Origin: a virus
DNA: 24,233 nucleotides
IMG/VR virus record: IMGVR_UViG_3300032093_000820
Coordinates: 1-24,233 of that record
Reading direction: 5' to 3' (one strand)
Below, one piece after another: positions 154 to 6,026 of this stretch (positions within the stretch are counted from its first letter, which is position 1; each line of letters begins with the position of its first letter). Under the pieces are notes generated by a model. It was not told the DNA's origin and made no database searches. It worked only from the letters and a program-made list of their open reading frames with translations. The translations under genes were made by a program, and so were the position numbers.

Positions 154-858
154 TTAAGTTGCCGCTGCTAGTGCTGATTCGGCGCGGCGCTTAGCTGTGC
201 CATGCGCCAAAAAAGCGATGATGACGCGACGACCGCGTTTTTGACCGTGGCATAGCTGACAGTCTGCGCACGTCTTAGTGTCTGACCGTTGGGCGGGACA
301 GACTAGGACGCGGTTCCCGGCTGCAGTTTGCCACGTTGTCCGCGTCTCGCCCGATGGCACGGTTAGCACAGCCGGAAGGCCGGAGGCTATGGCAGCGTCG
401 GCGGCTGATTCTGATTCGGTAGAGACGTTAACGGTGAAGCCCTGCCGATTGGCCTGCCGCAATAGCTGGAGATTCTCGCCAACAGTCAGGCTGTGATGGG
501 TATACGTGTAGCCAAAACGGCCACGGTTCGCGGCGATGATTGCCCGCATAAACCGCCGGGAGATTCTGCCGGCCGTGTGGGGCAAGTCGCCGGCCTGATT
601 GTGGCGCCATAGCTGGTCAGCCGGAAGCGCGGCGATATTGGCCAAAAAACGGGCGAGAGGTTCGCCACGTTCGCCACGGGTCACGGCATCCCAATGGTGG
701 CGCATAGGATAGTTTGCCGCATAGCAGCCGCCGCCCTGATAGAAGGGGCAGGTTTTTGGGCAGGTGACGGCGGATGACGTGCTGACCGGCAGGTCGCCAG
801 TTTTCCTGTTGCTGCTGTGTCGGGAAAAATGGAAGCGGAGCGATGACAGGGTTGCCAT
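154..858 (-). CDS. gp88-family (DUF7227) phage/plasmid protein, function unknown
   Basis: A 234-residue protein from the ATG at 858. The open frame continues upstream to 1044, but that part would overlap the preceding gene and lacks family features. Near the N-terminus is a cysteine motif, CPKTCPFY...GGCYA (C33, C37, C45). It is followed by LWRHNQAGDLP (residues 83-93), an AANRG...GYTYTH segment (109-121) and a C-terminal cluster (C187, C197, C200, C203). This order matches the gp88/DUF7227 family, found on phages and plasmids with no established function as far as I know. Seven cysteines in two clusters suggest a bound metal or iron-sulphur centre (inference). It is the last gene before the terminator at 104-128 and is GC-rich like its upstream neighbours. 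Confidence 0.8.
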   Translation of the reverse strand: MATLSSLRFHFSRHSSNRKTGDLPVSTSSAVTCPKTCPFYQGGGCYAANYPMRHHWDAVTRGERGEPLARFLANIAALPADQLWRHNQAGDLPHTAGRISRRFMRAIIAANRGRFGYTYTHHSLTVGENLQLLRQANRQGFTVNVSTESESAADAAIASGLPAVLTVPSGETRTTWQTAAGNRVLVCPAQRSDTKTCADCQLCHGQKRGRRVIIAFLAHGTAKRRAESALAAAT

Positions 859-889
859 AGGTTCAGGTTGCGATGGGATCGAGTGACGG

Positions 890-1147
890 TTAGGCGCTGA
901 AGCGACCGGGTGACATACGGGCGGCTTGTTGGCCTTGTTTGAGAAGGGAGCGGTAGGTTGACTGGCTGACGGCCACGGCATGGCAAACGGCGGCGGCGTT
1001 GCGCAGCTCGGGAGGCACAGCATGGTGACCGCTGTAACCGTCATCCCACGCGCCGACTAACTGGCCGTGTTGATCGAATGCGCAAAAGACCCGGCAGGGG
1101 TTGCCGTCACGGTCGTTTGTGGCCTTGAAAAGAACAACGGAATGCAT
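890..1147 (-). CDS. Hypothetical 85-residue protein
   Basis: A small protein that I do not recognise. The N-terminal half reads as a beta-rich sheet (MHSVVLFKATNDRDGNP, then CRVFCAFDQHGQLVGAW). The C-terminal half looks helical, with a possible helix-turn-helix around residues 48-70 (ELRNAAAVCHAVAVSQSTYR). It starts at an ATG with no clear Shine-Dalgarno site and ends 31 bases before the gp88-family gene. A promoter-like sequence lies just upstream at 1193-1220, so this gene and the gp88 gene may form their own sub-operon. DNA-binding function is only a guess. Confidence 0.6.
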   Translation of the reverse strand: MHSVVLFKATNDRDGNPCRVFCAFDQHGQLVGAWDDGYSGHHAVPPELRNAAAVCHAVAVSQSTYRSLLKQGQQAARMSPGRFSA

Positions 1148-2096: not shown

Positions 2097-2285
2097 TCAT
2101 GCGGCAGACAATGCGACGCGGACGCGGTAACGGCTGCAGCCAAGCTGTGAGGCTATGGCGGATTGGGTTAGGCCGGCGCGGCGCAACAGCCGAATGCGGC
2201 GATCCTGCCCCATGGTGGCCAGGTCAATCAGGGCGGCCACGGCCAGCAACGGCAACAGCAGCCAGAAAAAAACGGTAAGGGTCAT
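2097..2285 (-). CDS. Small membrane-anchored helix-turn-helix protein, 62 residues
   Basis: Residues 1-22 form one hydrophobic membrane segment (TVFFWLLLPLLAVAALIDLA). Residues 28-58 form a likely helix-turn-helix (DRRIRLLRRAGLTQSAIASQ, then LGCSRYRVRVAL), like the N-terminus of Hin/Sin resolvases and sigma region 4. A protein with just these two parts would be a membrane-tethered DNA-binding protein. It is the first gene of the leftward GC-rich operon, directly downstream of the promoter-like repeats at 2335-2387, and might autoregulate (inference). No partner is visible. Confidence 0.6.
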   Translation of the reverse strand: MTLTVFFWLLLPLLAVAALIDLATMGQDRRIRLLRRAGLTQSAIASQLGCSRYRVRVALSAA

Positions 2286-2334: not shown

Positions 2335-2393
2335 AGTGTACCGCCTAGCAGTAGGGGTCAACGGGTGGACCCCAAAAATAGGGTCAATTTTTT
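2335..2393 (-). promoter_or_regulatory. Candidate promoter/operator with three GACCC half-sites
   Basis: On the minus strand TTGACC (2361-2356) and TACACT (2340-2335) lie 15 bases apart, a short spacer for a promoter. TTGACCC occurs twice in direct orientation (2387-2381 and 2361-2355), with an inverted GGGGTC between them (2373-2368). On the plus strand GGGGTC/GACCCC and GACCC/GGGTC are mutually exclusive hairpins, the second followed by six T (2388-2393), so a weak rightward terminator is an alternative reading. Confidence 0.3.
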
Positions 2394-2429
2394 GATTGTC
2401 ACAACGCGCGGCATGGTGCGCCGGTTTGA

Positions 2430-2494
2430 GCCGTTGCGCATTGTCTGGCACGTGGCAGGGCGGCCAGGCTGCGGGTTCGAACCTCGGCAACGGT
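2430..2494 (+). other. tRNA-like fold without a D-arm (possible tRNA remnant)
   Basis: GCCGTTG (2430-2436) pairs with CAACGGT (2488-2494) as a 7-bp acceptor-like stem. GCGGG-TTCGAAC-CTCGG (2471-2487) gives a T-arm with the conserved TTCGAAC loop, four of five pairs being good. Between them GTCTGGC (2443-2449) pairs with GCCAGGC (2463-2469), leaving a 13-base loop. There is no room for a D-arm and no normal anticodon loop, so this is not a standard tRNA. It may be a degraded tRNA, such as an old attachment-site remnant, or coincidence. Confidence 0.25.
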
Positions 2495-2570
2495 CGCGCC
2501 ATTGCGCCCCATATATAAAGAGAGGCGGACCGCCGAAAAACCGGGCGAACCGGCAGGGCGGACCGTATGC

Positions 2571-2589
2571 GCAGGATTCTGAGAATGAT
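2571..2589. repeat. Right copy of the inverted repeat flanking the GC-rich block
   Basis: GCAGGATTCTGAGAATGAT is the inverted partner of 56-75. CTGAGAATGAT (2579-2589) is an exact 11-base match to the reverse complement of 56-66, and GCAGG matches again at the inner end. A third, palindromic copy of the core (TGAGAATGATTCTCA) follows at 2617-2631. Confidence 0.4.
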
Positions 2590-2616
2590 TCCCATTCCCA
2601 CCCGCTGATTCGGTGT

Positions 2617-2631
2617 TGAGAATGATTCTCA
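2617..2631. promoter_or_regulatory. Fur-type 7-1-7 palindrome
   Basis: TGAGAAT-G-ATTCTCA is a perfect 7-1-7 palindrome, the layout of a Fur box (TGATAATNATTATCA), differing only by one symmetric base in each arm. The extended sequence 2618-2636 matches 16 of 19 positions of the classic Fur box. No gene starts within 300 bases on either side, and the LexA-type box at 2641-2654 is 9 bases away. Fur control of phage genes would be unusual, so it could instead be an element end or another repressor's operator. Confidence 0.4.
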
Positions 2632-2640
2632 TTATCAAGT

Positions 2641-2654
2641 AGTACAGGTGTACT
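2641..2654. promoter_or_regulatory. LexA-type (SOS) box
   Basis: AGTACAGGTGTACT is a perfect 6-2-6 palindrome and fits the cyanobacterial LexA-box consensus RGTACNNNDGTWCB on both strands. A second perfect match lies at 10295-10308, just upstream of the rightward early operon. Which promoter this copy would control is unclear. The nearest genes that could be read from here are the leftward GC-rich operon starting at 2285. Confidence 0.5.
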
Positions 2655-2707: not shown

Positions 2708-2834
2708 CCTAAACCGACCTCGTTTCGGTACAAAAAACGCCCTAAACCGACCCCTCGCAAGAACTTGGCCATTTTGGCCTAAACCGACCTGCCGCAAGAA
2801 CTGAGGCCGTTAAACCGACACCCCGCAAGAACTT
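2708..2834 (+). repeat. Iteron-like array of four imperfect repeats
   Basis: The unit is CCTAAACCGACC, then a few bases, then CGCAAGAACT(T). The first half occurs at 2708-2719, 2741-2752, 2778-2789 and, as TTAAACCGAC, at 2810-2819. The second half follows in the last three copies (2756-2766, 2793-2802, 2824-2834). Spacing is 31-37 bases, about three helical turns, so a protein would bind on one face of the DNA. The last copy runs into the stop codon of the gpZ-like gene. Candidate roles are a replication origin, a partition site or a multi-site operator. Confidence 0.6.
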
Positions 2835-3604
2835 CAACGCAAAACCAACGCGGAGAATGTGCGATTGAATTCTGTGTTGATAGTTGTCGTTGCGATGTCC
2901 TTGAAGGCAAACTTGCCGGTGTAATTAGGCAATCCAATTTCACTCATCACTTTGCTCAACTTGCCATTCATTGAGAAGAAGATACCTGGACGACGTGAGT
3001 TCAGATTTCTGTACTGATCATCAAGCATTTCTTGACTGACGTAGAAATAACGCCCTGCTGTTTTGTTGCGCCCCTTGCCGCGATTGACAATGCGGTTGCC
3101 TGCACTGGATTCGTTGCGAAGGCTGGAAAGGATTTGGGTGTACTGCCCAGGCGACATGTTGCCGTAAGTATTTCTACGCACCATTGCAGAGCCTGTTGGG
3201 ATCATGATCCGGTTAGGCGCAAGAATTGGACCGCCGTCATCGGGGTTGACCGTGTACCCCAACGCACGCTGAAAACGTGTGCGGTAATGCGTGCCGCCGT
3301 AAATCTGCGGCAATAGGTAGCGACTAGGCGAGTTGCCTTTCGGAACATCGTCGCGAATAAATAGTTTTGCCTCCAAGTTGTCTTGCGTTGCTTTCTTGTA
3401 CAAGAAGGCGTTCAAAGTCAACGGAACAGGTCGCTTATCACCGTGAGTGAATGTTTTTTCAGCTTGACGTTTCAACTCTTGCGACGCTTCAAATACAGCT
3501 TTGTTGAGCGCAAGCATGCCAGCCCGTGGAATCTGAACACGCTGCAGTTCAGTGATTTTGCCAATGATCTTTTCAGCATCAAAGACGATGTCAGCTTCGA
3601 TCAT
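2834..3604 (-). CDS. Putative minor tail protein, lambda gpZ-like (tail completion)
   Basis: A 256-residue protein. The ATG at 3604 is preceded at four bases by AGGAGG (3614-3609), one of the clearest Shine-Dalgarno sites in the window; the frame stays open 12 codons further up without such a site. The N-terminal part (IPRAGMLALNKAVFEASQEL, then KRQAEKTF) and a middle region of lysine-rich strands recall lambda gpZ, which acts in tail completion. The similarity is by pattern, not by a catalytic motif. It also has RYLLPQIYGGTHYRTRFQRA near residue 100. A structural gene at the end of a DNA-metabolism block is odd; the strong ribosome site and the preceding terminator-like hairpin suggest separate, perhaps late, expression. 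Confidence 0.5.
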   Translation of the reverse strand: MIEADIVFDAEKIIGKITELQRVQIPRAGMLALNKAVFEASQELKRQAEKTFTHGDKRPVPLTLNAFLYKKATQDNLEAKLFIRDDVPKGNSPSRYLLPQIYGGTHYRTRFQRALGYTVNPDDGGPILAPNRIMIPTGSAMVRRNTYGNMSPGQYTQILSSLRNESSAGNRIVNRGKGRNKTAGRYFYVSQEMLDDQYRNLNSRRPGIFFSMNGKLSKVMSEIGLPNYTGKFAFKDIATTTINTEFNRTFSALVLR

Positions 3605-3629
3605 GTGACCTCCTGCGTAACACCAGCAT

Positions 3630-3681
3630 AAAAAAATCACCCCGGTGAAGCCACTGCCTCAGCGCGGGGCGATCCAATCGC
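3630..3681 (-). terminator. Weak terminator-like hairpin after the RusA gene
   Basis: On the minus strand TCAC-CGGG-GTGA (3648-3637) is followed by seven T (3636-3630). The stem has only 4 bp, so termination would be partial. A second small hairpin, GCGAT-CCA-ATCGC, lies just before it (3669-3681). Both sit in the 94-base gap between the RusA stop and the gpZ-like start. Confidence 0.35.
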
Positions 3682-4942: not shown

Positions 4943-5274
4943 GGTTTAAAAAAGTAAGAACATTCTTCGGCAAAAGAGCCGCCAGCTTCTGGAAGTGACA
5001 GCAAGCATTTGCCATTGGTGAATTGATGACAGTCATTGCAACTTTTTGTTGGCACATCAAGCGATAACATAAAAGTTTTTAGGTTATCAAGTTTTTTCTC
5101 CAAGTTTCTGTAGTGGTCAAGGATTTCAGCGGTGACTTCATAAATTGTCCAAGAATGATTGCAGTTAAGGCAACGTCGTCTAATTCGACGCGCTGTGTTA
5201 TTGAAAGTTGGCGATGATTCAATAACACTGAGTTTGGTGTAATTACATTTGGGGCAACGGCGACCATTATTCAT
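4939..5274 (-). CDS. NrdR-like zinc-ribbon protein with a second cysteine cluster, 111 residues
   Basis: Residues 5-46 match the NrdR-type zinc ribbon: C7 and C10, then the basic segment RRIRRRC with C35 and C38, then SWTIYE, like the RFTTYE of NrdR. Residues 50-75 are a coiled-coil-like helix (LDHYRNLEKKLDNLKTF). The C-terminus has a second cluster (C79, C82, C90, C105), which could bind another zinc. NrdR represses ribonucleotide reductase genes, but no such gene or ATP-cone is present here, so a different DNA target is likely. It overlaps the preceding 250-residue gene by one base (TAATG) and the 62-residue zinc-ribbon gene by ATGA. AT-richer than its downstream neighbours. Confidence 0.7.
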   Translation of the reverse strand: MNNGRRCPKCNYTKLSVIESSPTFNNTARRIRRRCLNCNHSWTIYEVTAEILDHYRNLEKKLDNLKTFMLSLDVPTKSCNDCHQFTNGKCLLSLPEAGGSFAEECSYFFKP

Positions 5275-6026
5275 TAATCAATTAATTCAAAATGGAACCC
5301 ATTGGCTGCATGGCCGCAACGAATCGCTCTTGATATGCCTTGACGAACGACGTGAACATCACGCGCAGCAGCACCCAAGCTTTTGTAAATTTTGCCGGTT
5401 TCAATGCATCGCACTCGTTTTGCTTTGATTAAAGGATCACGACGTTTTGGATATTGGCGAAGAATATCTTTTGCTTTTTTTGAATCTTCAAGCATGATTT
5501 GTAATCCAATTTCATTTACACCGCCTAAGCATTCAGGGTGATATTGCGCAAAACGAATAAAGTCAAGACGCGAAACGTAATTGAAGGCAAACCGCTTGCC
5601 ATTGTGTTGATATGTTTGAAGTGGTTTTTTTGTTAATCGTTTCCAACCTGCAATGGTCCATTTGGAAATGCCAAGTATTTCGCTAAGACGTTGAAATGTA
5701 AAATATTCAATTTGCGGTTTTGTACGATAACCAAGCCTGCGTAATTTGTGACTAATTGAATTGTTTGAGCGAAAAGGATAGTTGTGTTGAGTAGCCCAAA
5801 TTTTGTAAGCCCGAACAAGTCTGTGAAAAGGTGCGCTTTCGGCGTACTTCGTCAAGAATTCGATTTCAGAATCACTCCATAAAGCTGGCTTTGATCGATT
5901 AAATACGCTGCACTGCTTGCTGCATGTTTTACGTAAAGAAGGGCGTCCATTTCGCATGATCTTAATGTCAAAAATTCCACCGCAAACTGTACAAATGCGT
6001 TGATATTTTGAGCCTTGCATCAACAT
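5274..6026 (-). CDS. Zinc-finger/HTH protein with a C-terminal NUMOD1-like DNA-binding segment
   Basis: 250 residues, AT-rich. Residues 10-40 carry a four-cysteine finger (C12, C15, C35, C39). Residues 50-100 form a basic helical region (WSDSEIEFLTKYA, SISHKLRRLGY). Residues 108-128 are a helix-turn-helix (FQRLSEILGISKWTIAGWKR). Residues 205-250 resemble a NUMOD1 repeat (VRCIETGKIYKSLGAAARDV, then RQGISRAIRCG, then GFHFE), which homing endonucleases use to grip DNA. No GIY-YIG or HNH nuclease core is visible, so it may be a nuclease-less relic or a regulator. It is coupled by TAATG to the gene before it. Confidence 0.65.
   Translation of the reverse strand: MLMQGSKYQRICTVCGGIFDIKIMRNGRPSLRKTCSKQCSVFNRSKPALWSDSEIEFLTKYAESAPFHRLVRAYKIWATQHNYPFRSNNSISHKLRRLGYRTKPQIEYFTFQRLSEILGISKWTIAGWKRLTKKPLQTYQHNGKRFAFNYVSRLDFIRFAQYHPECLGGVNEIGLQIMLEDSKKAKDILRQYPKRRDPLIKAKRVRCIETGKIYKSLGAAARDVHVVRQGISRAIRCGHAANGFHFELID

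Follow-up and report, generated by a model that had tools for sequence, protein, structure and literature searches.

What recognises a small array of repeats abutting the end of a tail protein gene in an uncultured phage, and what might the array do there? It lies in a 24,233-bp uncultured virus contig (the window) and consists of one box (2708–2732) followed by three bipartite 24-bp units (2743–2834), the full units having the layout TAAACCGA-N6-GCAAGAACTT and starting at 2743, 2780 and 2811 (Table 1). A preliminary description of the locus had reported an iteron-like array of four copies, recurring every 33–37 bases and running up to the stop codon of a gpZ-like gene. Four copies are indeed present in register (spacing 33/37/31), but the first lacks the second half of the unit and carries an inverted pair in its place, so that the array is better described as three units and a box. 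The last unit does reach the stop codon (2834–2836, minus strand), which it abuts or overlaps, and the unit is unique in the window as had been claimed: exact matches to TAAACCGAC occur only at 2710, 2743, 2780 and 2811, and those to CGCAAGAACT only at 2756, 2793 and 2824. Because a simple 4^-9 estimate predicts about 0.2 exact 9-mers over both strands of the whole window, whereas four were observed on one strand within 110 bp, the array is not a product of chance. In alignments, the dyad of the box covaries in several relatives (ACCGA..TCGGT versus ACCGG..CCGGT) and is lost in others.

Table 1. Features of the window around the array and the genome end.
Feature	Position	Strand	Evidence
GTTCGAAATTACC, cos terminus of phage genome	1..13	.	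both ends of G017 and G012; 27 TerS loci
DUF7227 gene (PF23872), right-end gene	154..1044	-	Pfam, 1e-77
62-aa protein, hydrophobic N-terminus and HTH	2097..2285	-	HTH_23 match weak, below cut-off
Conserved non-coding block, promoter-like GTGACA-16-TATTTT (2402-2375)	2372..2530	-	alignment, BLAST
Fur-type palindrome TGAGAATGATTCCCA	2580..2594	.	
Fur-type palindrome TGAGAATGATTCTCA	2617..2631	.	
Cyanobacterial LexA-type palindrome AGTACAGGTGTACT	2641..2654	.	
Box 0, inverted half-sites TAAACCGA-N7-TCGGTACA	2708..2732	+	sequence; relatives
Unit 1, TAAACCGACCCCTCGCAAGAACTT	2743..2766	+	
Unit 2, TAAACCGACCTGCCGCAAGAACTG	2780..2803	+	
Unit 3, TAAACCGACACCCCGCAAGAACTT, abutting gpZ stop	2811..2834	+	
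gpZ-like minor tail protein gene	2834..3640 (homology from 3604)	-	phrog_1924, 5e-40; beside every array found

Scanning of viral contigs with one exact unit recovered 19 stretches in 18 further contigs, one of which contributed two, and each of the 18 records has exactly three units at two mismatches or fewer, on a single strand and with none elsewhere; a more permissive pattern of two units brought in four others, including an AT-rich and distant one (G022), again with three units in 4/4, although all these counts are of records rather than independent lineages and one phage may have been sampled more than once. In all 22 contigs found by motif there is a box or box remnant and a gpZ-like gene that ends at the last unit. 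A census of 59 loci with a gpZ profile comprised, by our own count, 41 canonical-type arrays, 11 related ones, three unrelated ones, three loci with no array and one that was uninformative. The orientation of the array is constant, it is found only behind gpZ, and the distance from the gpZ stop to the first CTTGC core is 5–8 nt in most genomes. Genome-wide searches revealed no scattered copies, the half-sites being essentially absent outside the array in these 36–39 kb genomes, and the array is conserved in relatives. The three-turn helical phasing suggested earlier did not hold, since unit spacing across relatives is 23, 24, 27, 29, 31, 33, 35, 37, 41, 43 or 47 bp, half-turn values included.

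A search for the exact unit in 84,980 bacterial and archaeal species gave three unrelated single matches, which is about chance level, and no host copy or prophage; sequence searches of cultured phages did not find the array, nor did the part of the literature on related cyanophages that was covered describe it. The nearest cultured phages by TerL are S-CBS1 and S-CBS3 (∼45% identity), in which the gpZ-like gene is the last before TerL, and the only cultured match to the 250-aa DNA-binding protein (5274–6026) of the window is the cyanosiphovirus S-LBS1; all three are without the 24-bp units. Repeats of another kind, CCTAACCT/GGTTGGGCAG, do occur at that genome end in S-LBS1 (L050), at ∼34235–34641 between the last gene and the terminase end. 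From these likenesses and from the LexA-type sites we infer a cyanobacterial host, and dozens of uncultured phages, probably of such hosts, have the array.

The position of the array is best understood from the genome end. The sequence GTTCGAAATTACC stands at the start and end of two genomes (G017, 38,903 bp; G012, 38,804 bp), follows directly upon an Illumina adapter at the opening of two contigs (G013 and G021), is the exact start of 27 TerS loci, and lies within contigs that span the junction (G004, G007, G010, G015 and others), as would be expected of a physical cos end; it is probably a filled-in 13-nt 5′ overhang. This cohesive-type terminus is conserved over a wide group. On the circular map, the order along the minus strand is replication genes, RusA, gpZ, array, palindromes, right-end genes (HTH60 and DUF7227), cos, TerS, TerL and late genes, and where the phage end is covered the array lies 1.7–2.9 kb from cos. 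In relatives that have no array (L076, L078, L082, L256 and others), a conserved cos-proximal motif, GCGGGTCC, comes only tens of bases after gpZ. The array, the operator-like palindromes and the right-end genes thus form one extra segment between gpZ and cos, absent from array-less relatives, and the genome junction placed here by the preliminary description is real, with gpZ on one side and the cos-proximal right-end segment on the other.

The Fur-type and LexA-type palindromes reported to the left of the array are present in the window, and palindromes of both kinds (TGAGAATGATTCTCA and AGTACATTTGTACT), putative Fur and LexA sites by consensus, cluster there in many array genomes. A second cluster lies within ∼200 bp of cos in several, and such palindromes are almost absent elsewhere in array genomes, their type differing between genomes. 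They are at 2580–2654 in the window, at 45–103 and 2414–2548 in G017 and at 73–132 and 1995–2122 in G020; those near cos are 29 bp apart, with Fur and LexA types interchangeable between genomes. The non-coding block (2372–2530), which also contains TATATATGGGNCGCAATGGCG, is ∼300 bp from the array; its promoter-like pair is a consensus match only and scored at the level of shuffled sequence in a promoter scan. Among nearby genes, the 62-aa protein is kept in most array genomes, with some exceptions, and the DUF7227 product has conserved cysteines and is 64–97% identical across relatives. The 250-aa protein, conserved in most array genomes, has a Cys-rich N-terminus and MerR-like and NUMOD1-like parts (weak Pfam matches). 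A tRNA scan found none, and an RNA family search gave no Rfam match. We also set aside a likeness of TAAACCG to the type I-E CRISPR handle, the hairpin part being absent.

If the units are recognition sites, a partner might be sought among the phage's own proteins, and natural exchanges between phages bear on this. Units within one genome change together: those of L116 carry ATAACCGA, those of L066 GCAAGACC and those of G048, G049 and G050 AAGGGACCTGCRAGGTTTC. The concerted changes in L116 and L066 are smaller than those in G048 and G049, where, on the minus strand, every unit has AAGGGACCTGCRAGGTTTCNGTTTA in place of AAGTTCTTGCRRGGNNTCGGTTTA. Other genomes have different repeats at the same position, either unrelated ones (G053, L246) or six TATCCCACGGTGGGG-type copies downstream of gpZ (L252, L253); the TATCCCACGGTGGGG copies are an imperfect palindrome, with TTGATCAA-type palindromes after them. 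Beside these switches, the mapped proteins are mostly near-identical. Relative to G017, TerS of G048 and G049 is 100/100% identical, the 188-aa replication protein 98.6/96.7%, the 250-aa protein 95.6/94.4% and the exonuclease 99.6/98.8%, and TerS is 99–100% identical across array types. The converse is seen in G015 and its 99.9% identical extension G024, in which a VirE-type primase-polymerase and helicase module replaces the replication genes of the window; neither the 188-aa nor the 250-aa protein was found in the part covered, which excludes the structural genes, and the array of G015 is canonical.

The array type therefore varies independently of the proteins mapped for replication, packaging and DNA binding. 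The 188-residue protein and the 250-aa protein were each not found in a genome that keeps the array and are near-identical in genomes that have switched it, and TerS is identical in G048 and G049 although their units differ from those of G017. The ribbon-helix-helix (RHH) protein of G049 is 88% identical to that of G017 while the array differs, and that of G048 is only 33% identical although G048 and G049, with dissimilar RHH proteins, share an array. HTH60 and DUF7227 were rejected because several array-bearing genomes lack them. On these comparisons, the 188-residue, RHH, TerS and 250-aa proteins are poor partner candidates. The concerted change of units itself suggests a trans-acting partner, with gene conversion as the alternative explanation, and switching of units as a set, while most of the mapped phage proteins are unchanged, points to a recognition element with a putative partner and not to a replication origin.

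We tentatively favour the reading that the array is a set of binding sites through which some factor, from the host or not recognised here, controls the right-end module (the region from the gpZ stop to cos). A sequence-specific protein, most likely host-encoded or the product of a small unrecognised gene, would bind the inverted box and all three direct units as DNA at the upstream edge of this module and control transcription into the right-end genes, acting jointly with the operators of Fur and LexA type and with the promoter-like block. This reading is favoured by the presence of exactly three units in all 22 records found by motif, always with gpZ; by the virtual absence of half-sites elsewhere and the joint change of units against a constant backbone; by the operator-type palindromes beside both the array and cos together with a promoter-like block on the same strand; and by the lack of a consistent RNA fold (see below). 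It is weakened by the distance and chance-level score of the promoter-like block, by spacing that is not phased, by the lack of a candidate binder among the mapped phage proteins, and by the fact that homogenisation of tandem repeats through gene conversion needs no trans partner. Among known systems, the arrangement resembles phage operator or activator arrays at late or right-end promoters, which likewise have multiple sites, palindromic operators, a promoter-like block nearby and a position upstream of a gene group on the same strand. In contrast to these, no cognate phage regulator was found, the array sits at the stop codon of a tail gene, and its specificity varies between near-identical phages.

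Alternatively, the array might form the 3′ end of gpZ mRNA, in which case a protein or a small RNA would recognise it in the transcript rather than in the DNA. The tight adjacency to the gpZ stop makes a role at the level of mRNA possible, as does the contrast between the near-fixed distance from stop to first core and the free spacing of the units (23–47 nt), and both the constant orientation and the restriction to sites behind gpZ agree with it. However, folding z-scores across 15 genomes ranged from +0.6 to −2.7, with no secondary structure common to them, the box is a DNA-like dyad, and joint inheritance of gpZ and the array would explain their adjacency. We regard this explanation as possible but improbable.

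The array might instead be a site for the machinery that packages or ejects DNA near the genome end, with gpZ itself as a possible partner. Of the proteins that are swapped, gpZ alone is present in every array genome; it lies directly beside cos in array-less relatives, and Z of phage lambda acts on particle DNA. Yet array type does not follow gpZ, since the gpZ proteins of G051 and G048 are 73% identical while their arrays differ, and canonical arrays accompany gpZ proteins only 29–37% identical; the constancy of TerS and the distance to cos also speak against such a site, which we consider unlikely. More doubtful still is a role as a module-boundary sequence, kept as homology for exchange of the right-end cassette. 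Cassettes from gpZ to cos are indeed exchanged, as described below, but their left breakpoints are at the start of gpZ and not inside the array, and neither conserved bipartite halves nor a fixed count of three would be needed for homology.

The preliminary description had seen the array as part of a control or replication locus, with sites for an initiator or partition protein. An array of non-coding sites at a junction, beside operator-like palindromes, is supported, whereas an origin, or iterons for the 188-residue or RHH proteins, is very improbable. The units do look like the iterons of lambda-type or plasmid origins (lambda O, RepA-type) in being short direct repeats in a conserved non-coding cluster unique in the genome. 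They differ in having no linked initiator, no regular phasing and no consistently AT-rich tract, and the canonical array is kept with an unrelated replication module and switched beside an almost unchanged replication protein. Moreover, no ParA was seen, and the GC-skew extremes of G017, G012 and G020 (weak evidence) are near 5–8.5 kb and near cos, with none at the array. The remaining candidates were rejected: lambda cosB R sites are also three in number, of a similar size class and near cos, but the array lies 1.7–2.9 kb away on the side away from TerS and changes while TerS is identical; a ParB/RHH centromere does not fit because the array does not covary with the RHH protein; integrase arm sites (attP) do not because tblastn found an integrase only in G017 and none in the complete G012 or the window; and a transposon end does not because no second, inverted set of units lies near cos.

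The exchanges between relatives have a sharp edge. When G049, G050 and G051 are aligned to G017, homology spans TerS and ends with base 13 of cos, whereas in G053 and G048 it breaks off 26 and 33 bases past cos, respectively. Homology resumes near the gpZ start on the other side, which indicates that the block of gpZ, array and right-end genes is exchanged as a cassette, one edge of which coincides with cos or lies close to it. An attractive cause would be that cohesive ends of different phages join. A more speculative possibility is that the array is a host-matched, rapidly diversifying cis-element whose type fits the phage to a factor of its host, not to a phage protein, as near-identical backbones swap these cassettes at the cohesive end.

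The array is thus a putative control element, so far undescribed in the literature searched (which was covered in part), shared across a large group of uncultured siphoviruses that are of cos type and probably infect cyanobacteria. The swaps seen in public contigs already rule out the obvious partners encoded by the phage, so the true partner can be sought directly. If the cohesive ends of co-infecting phages can join, as the sharp exchange edge at cos suggests, right-end modules may be reassorted in this way, a testable idea about how phage mosaicism arises.
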